DNA from: Silvibacterium acidisoli
Lineage (GTDB): Bacteria > Acidobacteriota > Terriglobia > Terriglobales > Acidobacteriaceae
Assembly: GCA_022870745.1 (NCBI GenBank)
Contig: CP085323.1
Span: 1,798,001-1,862,000 of the forward strand
Length of the DNA: 64,000 nucleotides
Direction: 5' to 3'
The notes under the pieces were generated by a model. It saw only the letters and a program-made list of their open reading frames with translations, ran no database searches and was not told where the DNA came from. Every line of letters starts with the position of its first letter. Positions within the stretch are counted from its first letter, which is position 1. The position numbers and the translations under genes were made by a program. This document shows positions 52,273 through 61,171 of this stretch, piece by piece.

Positions 52273-52479
52273 AGTTTTTGAAGAGATGAAGAATTTCCGC
52301 TTCGCCACTCCATGAAGGAGTGCCGCAGCCCCCACATCTTTTACCATGGGAATGTGCATCTCTCCGGTATGCGCATTTGCAGTCGAGGTGGGAATCTGCG
52401 GCATTCACCGTGGATAATCGCAGCTTCGGGCTTTCTTTTTGACTCGACGCGCGCGCTCGGACTACGATGCGATACGCAC

Positions 52480-52992
52480 ATGCGCAGAAAAGCTCATCTT
52501 CCGAGCTCGTTCGTTACACCGGCTGCGACTATCCTGTTGTCGCTTCTCTTGACATGCATCACGTCGACTCCTGCCCACGCGCTGCCGCACCGGGAAAACC
52601 ACGCTATTCACAAGGAAATTGAGACGCTCGAGGAAGAATGGCGGCAGGCCGTCATCTCGAACGACGTCACGCGCATGGATCACCTGCTGGCTGACGACTA
52701 CATCGGCATCAGCGCCAACGGCACGGTAGAAACCAAGACCCAGGCGCTGGCCCAACGCAAAGCCGGTACCGTCGTCATCACTAAGCTGGATATTGACGAT
52801 GTCAAAGTGCGCCTCTACGGCGACACGGCCGTCGTCACCTCGCAGGCCGAATTGCAGGGCAGCAATGGCCACGCCGACATCGGCGGCCGTTACCGCTATA
52901 CCCGCGTCTACAACCGGCGCTTCGGCCAGTGGAAGATCGTGAGCTTCGAAGCCAGCCGCATGCACGACGCCGACGCCCGCGCCAAGAACTAA
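52480..52992 (+). CDS. secreted DUF4440/SnoaL-like protein
   Basis: The start at ATG 52480 gives a 170-residue protein with a signal peptide ending near PAHALP. Upstream in-frame codons to 52312 do not look like protein. The mature part is an NTF2-like DUF4440 domain: an amphipathic helix EEEWRQAVISNDVTRMDHLL, then DDYIGISANGTVETK and a series of strands ending FGQWKIVSFEASRM. These small cone-shaped domains bind ligands or act as isomerases; the role here is unknown. It ends 6 bp before the convergent tldE-like gene. Confidence 0.82.
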   Translation: MRRKAHLPSSFVTPAATILLSLLLTCITSTPAHALPHRENHAIHKEIETLEEEWRQAVISNDVTRMDHLLADDYIGISANGTVETKTQALAQRKAGTVVITKLDIDDVKVRLYGDTAVVTSQAELQGSNGHADIGGRYRYTRVYNRRFGQWKIVSFEASRMHDADARAKN

Positions 52993-52998
52993 CCCCTC

Positions 52999-54657
52999 TT
53001 ATTGCGGCGGCGCGTAATAAGGCAGCTTGTCGTTCCGCTGCTCGGCGCGCTTCACCGTGATGTCATCCATCAGTAGAGACGGGGCAAGCACTGTCGCGGG
53101 TGGATCGGCCGGAATATTGTCCACGTAGGTGTCGCTGCCTGCCGCACGGATTCCTGAACGTAACGTACGCTGATCCAAATCATCGAGCGAGCCGCCCCGG
53201 ACAAGCTCACGCTTTCCAGAGGCAACATCGATGCGATAGAGCAGCCGAGGCGTCAGCTCCGGCCCGAAGGTATCGACGGCGTAGACCTTGTCCAGCCCTT
53301 CGTCTTTGCCGAGAGCAGCCAGCTTCTGCTTCATCTCGTCGGCTGAAGAAGGCCTGGTCGACTCCACATGCAGCACGCCGATCATGGGGTGCGCCGCACC
53401 ACCGATCGATGCCCTGCCATGGCCATTCGAATTCGGAAAATCCTTTACCGGCTCGCGCCCAATAACGTAGTTCGCCAGCTTGCCCTGGTCGACAACATCG
53501 ACCGTTTTCGCCGGAACACCCTGATCATCGATGTTGTACGAGCCGAAGAGGCCTTTACCCTCGAAGGTGGCCATCGCCGGATCGTCTGTGACCTTGAAAA
53601 ATTCAGGAAGCACACGGGTCTGGTAGCTCGACTGGTATGGGCCGCGTGTGCGTGCTGTCGTTCCCGTTTCGGGACGCACCGCAGCGATAGGATCGGCAAA
53701 GAGTTCCGCAAAGAGGTCCGCAGAGGCGTCGCCCGAGAAGAGCACAGGGCCGTGGTACTCATCGGCGATCACCGGAGCATCGTGCAACTGGTGCAGCGAA
53801 CTCAGAATGCCGAGCACACCAGCGTGCAGCTTCTCCGCGGAATCAAGCTGCGCCGCCGTGAGTCCTGTTGTCGCATAGCTGCGCTCGAGGCGCATGCCGT
53901 CCGGAGCCTGCCCGCCGACGGTGACCATCACCATGTACTGCGAGGACGCCTTCCGCAGGATTGTGCCTTCACTGTTGACGATGTAGCGATTCTGCGCGCG
54001 GGCGCTCATGCGCCCACTCGAATACTGCACTTCCTGCGCGAAGGCCTGTGCCGATTTGTCGCTGCGATAGAGACCTGTCGCTTCGACCAGCCGCTTCGAC
54101 CACGCATCTTCATCGACTGCGAGCTTCGTTACCGGCTCGAGCGAAACCACCGGCTTTTCTTCGGAGAAATCGTTCGCCGACGGAGGCGTCTGCACCGACT
54201 TGAGCGCCGCCTGCTTCTGCGTGTATTCCCGCAACGCCGACTTGTAAGCCGTATCGGTTGCCGACCAGAGCGCATAGCGCAGGGCTATGGGATCGTTTTC
54301 CGTCGAGGCCAGCTGCACCGATCCGTCGCCGCGGCCATTCGCTCCAGCTGAGCTGTCCATCTTGTAGTCGCCCACGCGAACCACGACCCTTGCGATGCGG
54401 TGATGTTGCTCGTTCTGGCCGGTCAGCGCTCCGTAGGAAGCCTGCGCGTCGAACTCGGTCACGTCGTCGATGCGGTACTCGATGAAGAACGGCTTTTCGA
54501 AGCCCTGCAACTGGAGACTCTGCCGGCTGCGATCCAGCTCGGCGAGCATGGCCTTCAGCACCGGATCCTTCTGCGCATCGGCAGCCGTACCCTGGGCAAA
54601 CCCGGTTGCCGTGCAGGCAAGCAAACCTAAGGAGAGTAGATGGCGGATCGATTTCAT
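52999..54657 (-). CDS. exported TldE/PmbA-like protein lacking the metal motif
   Basis: The 552-residue protein has a signal peptide (residues 1-21, ending near TGFAQG) and TldD/PmbA fold features, such as DPAMATFEGKGLFGSYNIDDQG followed by GHGRAS. The segment that should hold HExxxH reads LFSGDASADLFAELFADPI, so no zinc site is present, as in TldE (PmbA). Its start overlaps the end of the metal-bearing partner by 4 bp (ATGA), giving coupled translation. In E. coli the TldD-TldE heterodimer is a cytoplasmic protease that matures peptides; here both members appear to be exported. Confidence 0.85.
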   Translation of the reverse strand: MKSIRHLLSLGLLACTATGFAQGTAADAQKDPVLKAMLAELDRSRQSLQLQGFEKPFFIEYRIDDVTEFDAQASYGALTGQNEQHHRIARVVVRVGDYKMDSSAGANGRGDGSVQLASTENDPIALRYALWSATDTAYKSALREYTQKQAALKSVQTPPSANDFSEEKPVVSLEPVTKLAVDEDAWSKRLVEATGLYRSDKSAQAFAQEVQYSSGRMSARAQNRYIVNSEGTILRKASSQYMVMVTVGGQAPDGMRLERSYATTGLTAAQLDSAEKLHAGVLGILSSLHQLHDAPVIADEYHGPVLFSGDASADLFAELFADPIAAVRPETGTTARTRGPYQSSYQTRVLPEFFKVTDDPAMATFEGKGLFGSYNIDDQGVPAKTVDVVDQGKLANYVIGREPVKDFPNSNGHGRASIGGAAHPMIGVLHVESTRPSSADEMKQKLAALGKDEGLDKVYAVDTFGPELTPRLLYRIDVASGKRELVRGGSLDDLDQRTLRSGIRAAGSDTYVDNIPADPPATVLAPSLLMDDITVKRAEQRNDKLPYYAPPQ

Positions 54658-56372
54658 TTCTGACCTCCTTCGGCGGTCGGCGGAGGCAGAATCGGTGGCC
54701 GCGCCGTGCCCTGCTGCTGGCGTTGCGTCTCAATCTCACTGACCAGCATGGCTGGTGCGATGGCCGACACAGGGATGCTGCCGGACTCCGCGCCGCACTC
54801 GCCGTTGAAGACCTCGCGGGTGTCGCTGGTCGCGACAATACGATTCAGAGCTGCCTGTGGCGTTCCGACGATACTCACGCCGCGCACCAGCTCATCGGGA
54901 CGGCCATCGGTATACACCCGATAAACGACCAGAGGAATCACCTGGAAGGCTTGCGGAGCACTGCGCGTGGTAACAGCGAATCCGGAAGAAATGTCTTCGA
55001 AATACAGCCCGTAAGGCTTGTTCTGCTTCTTCGCCTCTTCGATCAGCATCTTGCGCAGTTCGGCATTCGAGACCGTCTTGGTCGAGGTCACGATCAGGTT
55101 GCCCTGCCGCCCGGTGGGAATGCGGCCGATCTGCGAGCGCCCGTGGCCGTTGGAGCTGGAGACGCTGGCAATCGGCAGGCGCGACATCAGGAAGGTCTTG
55201 AGCACGCCCTTTTCGATCAGGTCGACCTTCTGCGCACGCTGCCCTTCGTCGTCGTAGTTGTAGTAGCCGCTCAGGTAGGTTCCGTCGAAGGTGGCCATGG
55301 TCGGGTCATCGGAGACGGAGAGAAAATCAGGCAGGATGGGCTTGCCGAGATCCTTGGTAAAGGTCTGGCCTTCCTGGTCGCCGCGCTGCCGTTGGCCCTC
55401 CAACCGGTGCCCGAGCACCTCGTGAAAGAAGACAGCAGCGGCGCGTCCTGAGAGCAGTGCAGGTCCATCGAAGGGCTGCGTCACCGGGGCATTCCGCAGG
55501 TCTTCGAGGCTCGCGGCCAGCTTGCGCATGGCGGCTTCGAGCTCCTTCTGCGAAGGCAGGCCATCGGCGGTCTTCGCCTCGAAGGTCTGGGCGCGGTAAA
55601 GATCCATGCCGTCGGCGGCGCGAGTGCTGGCAAATACGATCAGCCGTGTCAGCTCATGCGGCGTGACGATGCGCGAGCCTTCTGAAGAGACGAAGTACTC
55701 CGTCTGCGCCTGCACGTTGAGCATGATGTAGTTCGAGTAGACATGCGGGTAGTCGCGGAAAACCGCCGACACCGCCTTGACCCGGTCGTTCCAGGCCTTC
55801 ATGTCGAGATGCGGCTCGGCCACAGGCTTCGCATCGGTGCTGACGACCGCCCTCTCCTGCGAGAAATCCGGCGAACCGTCTTCTTCCTTGGCGCGAACCT
55901 GCGTTTCGGTCTTTACCTGCAGGTAGGTCTGAAGCGCCTGCCCATATCCGGCATTGGTTCCCCACCAGAGCGCGCGTGCCGTTGCCTTGGAATCGTCGTT
56001 CAGCGGCAGCGAAACCGTGTTGATCGCCGAGGCGCGGTGCTGGCCGTGGGTGTTGTCGAGCTTCGGGTCGCCGACGCGGATGACTATGTCGGCGGCACGT
56101 CCATGGTTGGCGTCCGACGAGAGCAGGGCGCCCTGCTGCGCGGTGATCGAAACTGAGTAGCCGTCGTACGCTGTGTAGCTCAGGTAGTACGGAGGCTGCT
56201 GCTGTGCGCCGTCCTGCGGATTGTGTCCCAGGTTGCCGGTTGCGCGCTTCAACTCCGTCGACATGGTATCGAGCAGCGCGGGAGAATCCTGGGCAAGGAG
56301 TGATGGCAAAGGGAAAGACGAGGCAGCGCAGAACACTACCGGCAGCAAGAACAACGAACGTCGCAAAGTCAT
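54654..56372 (-). CDS. exported TldD-like metallopeptidase
   Basis: The 572-residue protein has a signal peptide ending near SLLAQD. The zinc motif H317-E318-V-L-G-H322 lies in AVFFHEVLGHRLEGQRQR, and a Cys in NGECGAESG near the C-terminus matches the third ligand of TldD. The region DPTMATFDGTYLSGYYNYDDEG mirrors the partner protein. It is the catalytic member of a TldD/TldE-like pair and lies first in the two-gene operon. The substrates are probably unfolded peptides in the periplasm. Divergent from the M48 gene with 69 bp between the starts. Confidence 0.87.
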   Translation of the reverse strand: MTLRRSLFLLPVVFCAASSFPLPSLLAQDSPALLDTMSTELKRATGNLGHNPQDGAQQQPPYYLSYTAYDGYSVSITAQQGALLSSDANHGRAADIVIRVGDPKLDNTHGQHRASAINTVSLPLNDDSKATARALWWGTNAGYGQALQTYLQVKTETQVRAKEEDGSPDFSQERAVVSTDAKPVAEPHLDMKAWNDRVKAVSAVFRDYPHVYSNYIMLNVQAQTEYFVSSEGSRIVTPHELTRLIVFASTRAADGMDLYRAQTFEAKTADGLPSQKELEAAMRKLAASLEDLRNAPVTQPFDGPALLSGRAAAVFFHEVLGHRLEGQRQRGDQEGQTFTKDLGKPILPDFLSVSDDPTMATFDGTYLSGYYNYDDEGQRAQKVDLIEKGVLKTFLMSRLPIASVSSSNGHGRSQIGRIPTGRQGNLIVTSTKTVSNAELRKMLIEEAKKQNKPYGLYFEDISSGFAVTTRSAPQAFQVIPLVVYRVYTDGRPDELVRGVSIVGTPQAALNRIVATSDTREVFNGECGAESGSIPVSAIAPAMLVSEIETQRQQQGTARPPILPPPTAEGGQK

Positions 56373-56441: not shown

Positions 56442-57647
56442 ATGTTCCTCCCCGGCGCAGAACACGCCGTTTACACGCTGCCCCCGGACAAGCTGGTGAA
56501 GGCCCTGCACTTGAGCCACGCCCGTACGCTCGCCTACTTCGGCGACGCTGCCTGGTCGATCGCTTTTCTCGCGCTCATGGTACGCTTTCGCGCCGGGTCG
56601 CGCATTTCGCGGCTGGCCAGCCGCGTGACCCATCGTCCCTGGCTGCAGGGCACGATCGTGGTGCCGATCTGGCTGCTGATCCTCACCGTCGCCAGCCTGC
56701 CGGTGTCTTTCCTCATGGAGCGCATGGATAAGGCTTACGGTCTCTCGGTCGAGCCATGGAGCCTCTGGCTCGCCGACATCGGCAAATCGCTGCTGATCAA
56801 CGTCCCCATGGAAACGCTCGCCGTCGGCGTACTTTATGCCCTGATGCGGCACTCGGCGCGGAGATGGTGGCTGTGGTTCTGGCTGATTTCACTGCCTGTG
56901 CTGGTGCTCGGTGTTTACGCCGCACCGATTCTGATCGATCCAGTCTTCAACCACTTCACGCCGCTGGCAGGCAAAGACCCGGCGCTGGTGACTCGCCTGC
57001 AGGAAGTCGCAGCGAAGGGGCATCTGGAGATTCCGTCCTCCCGAATCTTTGTGATGGACGCCAGCCGCAAGGTTACCGGCCCGAATGCCTATGTGACCGG
57101 CTTCGGCGGGTCGAAACGGATTGTCGTGTGGGACAACACCCTTAATGAAATGCCCTCCGACGAGATCCTCGCCGTCTACGGACACGAACAGGGCCATTAC
57201 GTGCTGAACCACATCCACAAGGGCCTGCTCTTTTCAGCGGTAACGATGTTCGTCTTCTTCTGGATCGCCTATCGCCTCATGACATGGCTGGCGCCTCGTT
57301 TCGGCACGCCGGTGGGCGAATGGTCGTCTTTTGGGTTGCTCATGCTGCTGGTAACCATCCTCGGCTTCTTCGCCGAACCGGTCGGCAACGCCTTCAGCCG
57401 CCACATCGAACACCAGGCAGACGTCTACGGGCAGGAGGTCATTCACGGCCTCGTCCCGGACTCCCGCGCGGCGATGGTGAACTCCTTCCAGACGCTGGGC
57501 GAACTTTGGCTGGAGGCCCCGACTGAAAACCCCTTCGTCGTTTTCTGGACGTTCAGCCATCCACCCGTCGCCGATCGCTATCGCTTTGCGGAGCAATACG
57601 ATCCCTGGCGGCCGGGTCACAGTCCAAAATATGTTCAGGCGCAGTAA
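56442..57647 (+). CDS. M48-family metallopeptidase (Ste24-like)
   Basis: The 401-residue membrane protein has several helices (about 65-90, 105-150, 260-285, 300-325) and the zinc motif HEQGHYVLNH with a later Glu in HIEHQADVYGQEV. The N-terminal region and the long spacing match CAAX prenyl protease 1/Ste24-like enzymes. In bacteria they are thought to cut membrane or periplasmic proteins. FSHPPVADRYRFA near the end is the usual C-terminal block. The HIT gene follows after 9 bp, perhaps on the same transcript. Confidence 0.92.
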   Translation: MFLPGAEHAVYTLPPDKLVKALHLSHARTLAYFGDAAWSIAFLALMVRFRAGSRISRLASRVTHRPWLQGTIVVPIWLLILTVASLPVSFLMERMDKAYGLSVEPWSLWLADIGKSLLINVPMETLAVGVLYALMRHSARRWWLWFWLISLPVLVLGVYAAPILIDPVFNHFTPLAGKDPALVTRLQEVAAKGHLEIPSSRIFVMDASRKVTGPNAYVTGFGGSKRIVVWDNTLNEMPSDEILAVYGHEQGHYVLNHIHKGLLFSAVTMFVFFWIAYRLMTWLAPRFGTPVGEWSSFGLLMLLVTILGFFAEPVGNAFSRHIEHQADVYGQEVIHGLVPDSRAAMVNSFQTLGELWLEAPTENPFVVFWTFSHPPVADRYRFAEQYDPWRPGHSPKYVQAQ

Positions 57648-59629: not shown

Positions 59630-61171
59630 ATGTCACGAAACCCACTGGCTCACTCATTTCTAAGGATTTCCGCCCTGGCCTGCGCTGCGCTGGCGCTGCC
59701 GGCGCTCGGCCAGTACCCGGGTCGCATCGATCCCAATCAGTCGAAGCCGGAACCGGTTTTGCGCGCCACGGCTGTCCTCGAATACACCGGCGACCTGACC
59801 AAGCCGACCGCCAGCCGTCTCGTTCCGCTGGCTGTGTGGGACGGCGAACGCTATCAGCCCGGCGGCCTTTACATGGCGCAGCCCATGCCGATGGCTGTCG
59901 AGACAGGCACGCAGTACGAGCTCTACACGGCTGGCGTTTCGAAGGGATTGTTCGATGTAAAGGCTGCTGCAAACATTGGCGGATCATGGATCGCCGTGGG
60001 AAATTTTCAGAAGCCCGTTCCTCCACAGGTGGCCAGGCTTAAGAAGTCGAAGAATCCTCCGCAGATCATCGACGGCGTGAACTACGACGACGGCAAGCCG
60101 CATTTTGCACACCGTCCTCCGCAGACGCAGTCCTCAGACGGCAAGAGTTCGTCGACCGACACGAAGTCTTCGGGCACAAGCAATGCTCCGACTGTCGATC
60201 CCGATCGCCCAACATTGCACCGGCGTGACTCCAGCGGCGGCGATTCCTCCAGCAGCTCCAGCTCGACCGGTTCTTCCGGAAGCTCGACACCCACAAGCTC
60301 CGCGCCACCGGTCGATCCGGACCGGCCCACCCTGCACCGGCCAAATGATTCCGGCAACTCCGGCTCCTCAACGACCGCGAGCAATGCGCCCGCGACCGAC
60401 CCGGACCGCCCGAAGCTGCACCGTGGCAATTCGAATTCCTCCGACAATGGAGCGCCTGTCTCCGCCACCACCGATGTCGATCCGGATCGCCCTCGCTTGC
60501 GGCGCGGACGCCCCACGGAATATGAACAACTCGACGTGCCGGCAAATGTGGAGATTGCCAAGGTTGAGAAGGCGTCGCAGAATGTCGAGCTGATTGCCGC
60601 GGTCTCTGACGCGCGTATCCGCGAGCCGCATCCCTACGTCTATTCGTGGAACAGTCCGGATGATGCGCAGAAAGCGAAATCCGCGCTCGAAGACCAGGCA
60701 CGCACGCTGCTGGGCGGCTCTCCCAAGGCAACTGCAAAACCGGCTCCCGCAAGAACCACGCCCCCTAAGACAGCAGCCGCTCGTGCCGCCGCCGCGCGCG
60801 CCCGGGCAAAAGCAGCGGCGACGGCGCCAATGGAGCTGCACGACGAGCTGTTCAAGGCCTATGAGCTTTCATTTGGCGGAGGTGCAACCCTGGTCTTCTC
60901 GGCAAGCACCGGAGAAGGCGATGCCACGAAGTACGTCACGCTGATCGCGCAGCCGGATTTCAACGGAGTGCCGCAAGTCATCTACAAGCAGGTGACAACC
61001 CGGGCGCAGCTCGACGTTCTGCCGCGCATGGAAATCGTGGATGCCGTCGATACCGACGCCGACAACCGGGCCGAGCTGGTCTTCGCCCTCGCCACCTCGA
61101 CGGACCGCCAGTACGCGATCTACCGGGTCGCCGACCACTCGGTGCAGCAGGTCTTCAGCACCGGCTCGTAG
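59630..61171 (+). CDS. secreted repeat-rich protein of unknown function
   Basis: The 513-residue protein has an AGGG ribosome site and a signal peptide ending near LPALGQ. A domain at about 40-145 includes repeated proline and tyrosine residues; a Ser-rich linker (about 165-295) then holds four copies of a short unit related to VDPDRPTLHR, the last ones being TDPDRPKLHR and VDPDRPRLRR. An Ala-rich stretch follows (about 360-400). A C-terminal domain near residue 400-510 looks like a beta-propeller fragment. I recognise no enzymatic motif. Similar multi-linker proteins are common in Acidobacteriota. It is divergent from bcp. Confidence 0.8.
   Translation: MSRNPLAHSFLRISALACAALALPALGQYPGRIDPNQSKPEPVLRATAVLEYTGDLTKPTASRLVPLAVWDGERYQPGGLYMAQPMPMAVETGTQYELYTAGVSKGLFDVKAAANIGGSWIAVGNFQKPVPPQVARLKKSKNPPQIIDGVNYDDGKPHFAHRPPQTQSSDGKSSSTDTKSSGTSNAPTVDPDRPTLHRRDSSGGDSSSSSSSTGSSGSSTPTSSAPPVDPDRPTLHRPNDSGNSGSSTTASNAPATDPDRPKLHRGNSNSSDNGAPVSATTDVDPDRPRLRRGRPTEYEQLDVPANVEIAKVEKASQNVELIAAVSDARIREPHPYVYSWNSPDDAQKAKSALEDQARTLLGGSPKATAKPAPARTTPPKTAAARAAAARARAKAAATAPMELHDELFKAYELSFGGGATLVFSASTGEGDATKYVTLIAQPDFNGVPQVIYKQVTTRAQLDVLPRMEIVDAVDTDADNRAELVFALATSTDRQYAIYRVADHSVQQVFSTGS

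Follow-up and report, generated by a model that had tools for sequence, protein, structure and literature searches.

A TldD/TldE-like gene pair of Silvibacterium acidisoli and its relatives with predicted export signals on both subunits

Background

TldD and TldE (PmbA; MEROPS family M103) are widespread proteins whose general function has been called elusive (PMC5810440). In the E. coli enzyme (PDB 5NJ5/5NJF) the active site is enclosed in a shell built from two subunits, to which only unfolded peptides are admitted (PMC5810440, PMC10885120), and activity requires both halves, while an active TldD homodimer has been reported from Sulfolobus (cited in PMC5810440). The E. coli proteins mature microcin B17, and TldD/E also acts on other ribosomally synthesized and post-translationally modified peptides (RiPPs) (PMC5810440, PMC10885120). 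TldE is assumed to be a copy of TldD that lost its catalytic centre (Ghilarov and others, PMC5810440, Discussion). Here we describe a related pair of adjacent genes, termed D' and E', from the acidobacterium Silvibacterium acidisoli, both of whose products begin with Sec-like signal peptides. The pair lies in a stretch of 64,000 nucleotides, the window of this report (assembly GCA_022870745.1, contig CP085323.1, positions 1,798,001 to 1,862,000 of the forward strand), where an earlier note made from the letters alone had pointed to an exported TldD/TldE-like pair.

No description of such an exported pair was found in the literature at the level of titles and the beginnings of abstracts, and a prior description is possible. 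In Leptospira, an exoproteome study names the product of a tldD gene as one of the secreted proteases (PMC5881292).

An overlapping pair with one zinc site

Both genes lie on the minus strand, where they had been noted. The D' gene (54654..56372) encodes a catalytic subunit of 572 amino acids (aa), and the E' gene (52999..54657) a partner of 552 aa that lacks HExxxH. The stop codon TGA of D' and the start codon ATG of E' share the tetranucleotide ATGA (54654..54657), and a Shine-Dalgarno-like AAGGAGG (54664..54670) stands within the end of D', 6 nucleotides upstream of the E' start, a layout that suggests coupled translation. The Sec-like signal peptide called by rule covers residues 1-27 of D' (56292..56372) and residues 1-21 of E' (54595..54657), with inferred cleavage sites: read by eye, the D' signal is MTLRRSLFLLPVVFCAASSFPLPSLLA, with QDS following the cleavage point, and that of E' is MKSIRHLLSLGLLACTATGFA, followed by QGT.

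D' retains the zinc motif HEVLGH (residues 317-322; 55407..55424, minus strand) and the third ligand, Cys526, in CGAESG (54795..54797, minus strand), and E' has neither. In a phmmer alignment H317, E318, H322 and C526 of D' fall on H262, E263, H267 and C454 of E. coli TldD, whose roles are given in PMC5810440. As in the E. coli pair, HExxxH and a remote cysteine are thus found in one subunit and the site is lost in the other. This division is kept among relatives. In a first set, HExxxH occurs in all 23 D'-type proteins (one unpaired protein, L058, included) and the ligand cysteine in 22, the sole protein without it (L057) coming from a broken frame; neither feature occurs in any of the 22 E' proteins. 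In a larger set, from which three D' and two E' without N-termini, matches below 100 bits and repeats were excluded, HExxxH is present in 99/99 D' and 0/98 E', beyond what chance would give, and a CGAES-type motif in 95/99 and 0/98. D' can also be told from ordinary TldD, as the extended motif HExxxHRxE is found in all 99 D' and in none of 28 TldD, and CGKxG or CGRxG in 16 of the 28 TldD and in no D'.

Only the third domain links the pair to the E. coli proteins at Pfam cut-offs: PmbA_TldD_3rd (PF19289) scores 102.7 bits in D' and 59 bits in E', both above the cut-off of 22. The N-terminal PF01523 and central PF19290 give no match for D', and in E' PF19290 stays under its cut-off. NCBIfam scores leave the pair far short of equivalog status for TldD or PmbA; D' reaches 86.2 of the 635 bits of NF040952 and 40.5 of the 513 bits of NF008006, neither of which makes it a TldD. 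With phmmer, D' matched the TldD structure 5nj5 at 5.4e-11, and E' gave no hit to a solved structure within an E value of 1. By these sequence comparisons and by the trees below, D' and E' are members of the TldD/TldE superfamily, yet neither TldD nor TldE.

Predicted fold

AlphaFold models built from 15-row alignments have a mean pLDDT (predicted local distance difference test) of 81.8 for D' and 87.2 for E'. Structures of TldD, TldE and PmbA lead the Foldseek results for both models, with 16 rows each at E up to 0.001. With VIA-align, the D' model matches TldD chain 5njf_C at Z 30.1 (450 residues aligned, root-mean-square deviation 3.7) and the E' model matches the same chain at Z 28.4 (432 residues, 3.3) and the TldE-type chains 6j6a_A and 1vl4_A at Z 27.2; the first unrelated rows appear at Z 5.1 for D' and 5.0 for E'. 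In the predicted models, the TldD/TldE fold is therefore present over most of the length of both proteins, which share it with E. coli TldD and TldE.

Export signals and cysteines

What sets D' and E' apart from the E. coli pair is the signal-like N-terminus on both subunits. Signals were called by one simple rule applied equally to all proteins, with start codons picked among candidates; these calls are predictions. The earlier note held that homologues lacking the signal peptides would refute its reading; in most of the homologues examined Sec-like signals are in fact called, on 83/99 D' and 92/98 E'. Among ordinary proteins the same rule called a signal in 0/16 TldE and 4/28 TldD, all four of the latter being of the twin-arginine translocation (Tat) type. 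Signals of the Sec kind on both partners, as predicted by this rule, speak against a cytoplasmic location.

The cysteine content points the same way. In the pair of the window, D' contains no cysteine beyond its signal peptide except Cys526, and E' contains none there at all. Among relatives, 78 of 101 D' cores hold a single cysteine and 100 of 101 the ligand motif, while 50 of 95 E' cores have no cysteine and 27 have one. In the smaller phylum set the mature D' has one cysteine in 18/21 and the mature E' none in 18/22, compared with medians of 4 in ordinary TldD (n=25) and 3 in ordinary TldE (n=11). The sequences behind these cysteine and signal counts are related and not independent, and no p-value is attached to them. 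Neither subunit seems to be a lipoprotein, a lipobox pattern being found in just 0/23 D' and 2/22 E'.

Another kind of putatively exported pair was encountered among 14 further regions chosen because their proteins looked unusual. In six of them (L171-L176, from genomes G006, G022, G035, G005, G034 and G038) a TldD of ordinary type carries a twin-arginine motif (e.g. TRRDFI, SRRSFL) with a signal-less TldE alongside. Like D'/E', these are likely exported pairs in which one half is active and the other dead. They differ in belonging, by profile score, to ordinary TldD and TldE and in bearing the motif on the catalytic subunit only, so that the partner would have to hitch-hike; they may be pairs that are exported together, already folded, through Tat.

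A probable second loss of the active site

The main tree was built from 61 proteins (13 of the 23 D' and 12 of the 22 E' among them) after removal of the catalytic columns and exclusion of nine partial or repeated ordinary rows. It separates a clade of D' and E' from TldD and TldE at 100/100, and this split is kept at 100/100 after thirteen further long-branched or deviant rows are dropped. Quick trees of the N-terminal and C-terminal halves each recover it at 100 (Shimodaira-Hasegawa-like approximate likelihood ratio test, SH-aLRT), although E' alone does not form one side of a branch in the N-terminal half. Forcing the dead proteins into one clade costs 167 log units and is rejected by the approximately unbiased test (p-AU 6e-89), although the tool warns that a long-branch bias in the model would carry over into such a test. 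D' is thus not nested within TldD, nor E' within TldE.

Because recovery of a lost active site is improbable, two losses make the simplest history, and the dead partner probably arose twice, E' independently of TldE. The earlier note had E' losing its site just like TldE; the manner of the loss is indeed the same, but the loss was apparently not inherited, D' and E' being each other's closest relatives. A second, independent loss in a sister family would be a natural replicate of the idea that TldE derives from TldD, and the causes that lead an active peptidase to acquire an inactive partner should show in both families. It seems moderately likely that D' and E' constitute a separate extracytoplasmic family of heterodimeric 'pencil-sharpener' peptidases. 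In this reading an active enzyme was duplicated and one copy turned into a dead shell partner, so that the architecture of one active and one dead subunit evolved for a second time, and export was accompanied by the disappearance of most cysteines apart from the zinc ligand.

Distribution, pairing and fusion

A full-length D'-type gene was found in 23 of 149 genomes of the phylum; the searched genome set is taken to be Acidobacteriota because its closest named matches belong there. A fused query at 1e-40 matched 65 of 396 phylum genomes, three of them with singletons. A scan of named genomes confirmed at least 533 of at least 589 candidate stretches. The best 80 of these, a sample that leans towards close relatives, comprise 66 from Acidobacteriota, 6 from Planctomycetota, 2 from Verrucomicrobiota, 1 from Cloacimonadota, 2 from Pseudomonadota and 3 not assigned to a phylum, of which two are titled Aminicenantes. 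The related loci are assigned to at least four phyla and come mostly from metagenome-assembled genomes (MAGs); we suspect that the two Pseudomonadota MAG contigs may be mis-binned. The closest named match among those listed is Silvibacterium bohemicum, at 74 percent.

In 98/103 loci E' comes next after D', in the same orientation (one stretch was sampled twice, as L045 and L091, so that the totals of 103 and 104 loci each include one duplicate). The five exceptions are two loci of one genome whose halves lie on different contigs (L046, L059), two with no E' within the sampled stretch (L087, L132) and the singleton L058. Among 20 pairs measured, with starts of our own choice, the genes overlap by 1 or 4 bases in nine and by 46 bases in a tenth, where one gene is broken. 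In one locus the two halves are naturally fused in a single frame of 1132 residues (L139:1-3399), with an active D' half, a dead E' half, a short linker and no signal ahead of the E' half. Further candidate fusions in G376, G292, G245, G284, G176 and G351 have stop codons between the halves, leaving this as the sole fusion found.

The pair is no mere copy of the cytoplasmic one. The genome of S. acidisoli keeps an ordinary TldD and TldE at a distance of about 0.9 Mb, neither of them showing a signal, and strong ordinary-type matches (above 200 bits) occur in 15 of the 23 D'-type genomes; in four of the 23 (G143, G024, G050, G088) D' and E' are the only proteins that match PF19289.

The closest relatives outside the pair are three singletons (L058, at L058:6768-8417, L186 and L187, in genomes G033, G151 and G154), each an active D'-type gene sharing HExxxH and the ligand cysteine motif with D'. 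They differ in showing no signal and in holding 5, 6 and 8 cysteines, and in these three genomes a search with the E' profile returned that D'-type gene and, in two of them, nothing further than weak matches near 24 bits; the absence of E' is less certain in G154, whose completeness is 81 percent. They group with D' at 75/78 in one tree and outside D' and E' at 94/67 in another, and may or may not predate the D'/E' duplication. We regard them as a candidate homodimeric form.

Proposed function and alternatives

Fold, site, pairing, signals and few cysteines together make an exported TldD/TldE-like pair the best reading, as the earlier note had it. We consider it likely that D'/E' is a Sec-exported heterodimeric zinc peptidase, presumably periplasmic, that clears unfolded or released peptides from the envelope; the heterodimer, its location, its peptidase activity and its clean-up role we infer from sequences and models. 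The zinc of D' would be held by H317, H322 and C526, with E318 as the general base, and E' would be a catalytically dead paralogue that completes the shell enclosing it. If the pair works like E. coli TldD/E, an unfolded peptide would reach the site by its free end only and be shortened there a little at a time, with little dependence on sequence. Sec moves chains across the membrane unfolded. Each subunit would therefore need its own signal, and the dimer would have to form after export, presumably within the periplasm. If exported, the pair could provide ATPase-free peptide trimming in the envelope of phyla in which, in our judgement, envelope proteolysis is little known.

Several observations weigh against this proposal. 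No signal is called on 16/99 D' and 6/98 E'; many of these proteins have a hydrophobic start by eye, and among the uncalled D' two (L044, L139) are cut by the contig end, while L058 is truly without a signal. More than one cysteine remains in 23/101 D' cores, and the loss is weaker in E', where 45/95 cores keep at least one. In E. coli TldD, Lys456 and Asp272 tether a clamp (PMC5810440); the alignment places A528 and Q327 there in D', whose clamp would be built or held differently because these residues are not kept. The fusion is known from a single MAG contig that starts inside D', so its outer signal is not visible. Against the proposed second loss of the site, profile comparisons place E' somewhat nearer TldE (156.7) than TldD (121.0), a difference that is small beside the E'-D' score of 859.6.

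A dedicated role in processing one specific exported peptide or RiPP-like precursor, instead of general clean-up, is unlikely, although TldD/E has such substrates and a radical SAM cluster recurs near the pair in 7/104 loci. Open reading frame clusters found in more than 20 of the 104 loci are just those of the pair itself and of an M48 peptidase; next among those examined come an RlpA-like protein (18 loci) and two clusters, in 17 and 11 loci, that match no Pfam family, and the other recurring clusters have no Pfam match or are not annotated. This neighbourhood argues weakly against a dedicated precursor, as precursor frames of fewer than 100 aa were not searched and RiPP maturases are often encoded outside the gene cluster. 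The M48 gene of the window (56442..57647, plus strand; CAAX-type membrane peptidase) is transcribed divergently about 70 bases from the pair, and relatives are likewise placed in 35/104 loci, the window included (37 loci matched, two of them without an assigned D'); it is a possible functional neighbour whose part is unproven. The RlpA-like lytic transglycosylase (DPBB plus SPOR; L038:6355-7143 and relatives) lies downstream on the opposite strand. Both neighbours would fit envelope turnover.

It is improbable that D' and E' form separate homodimers, or that E' regulates or inhibits D' instead of making up one of two structural halves. The singletons indicate that a D'-type enzyme can exist without E', and the Sulfolobus homodimer is a precedent, but the near-constant adjacency of D' and E', their one-to-one fusion and the need of the E. 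coli enzyme for both halves argue for a shared structure.

That the N-termini go uncleaved or do not work as signals, leaving both proteins in the cytoplasm, seems very unlikely. The export signals are rule-based predictions that miss some D'; against this, they are conserved on both partners and never called on ordinary TldE, cysteines are few in signal-bearing members and more numerous in the three signal-less singletons, and the fusion carries no internal signal.

We give still less credence to descent of E' from ordinary TldE, with its likeness to D' due to long-branch attraction or gene conversion. The internal branches of the tree are long, and alongside the leaning of E' towards TldE, D' is nearer TldD (156.4) than TldE (78.3); the strength of the E'-D' profile match, the support for their clade in full and half trees and the rejection of a single inactive clade all oppose it. 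Equally hard to credit is amide hydrolysis on a small molecule in place of peptide cleavage: some TldD/E relatives are said to be N-deacetylases (in the title of a review), but the zinc site and dead partner fit a peptidase as well, and none of the few annotated neighbour clusters was recognised as a small-molecule pathway, a weak point.

Other features of the window

A DUF4440/SnoaL-like protein (52312-52992) is encoded convergently with the D'/E' pair and has no relative beside the pair in other loci. Farther away, a protein of 513 aa (59630-61171) without a Pfam match contains several copies of a VDPDRPTLHR-like motif, with no tandem array in the DNA.

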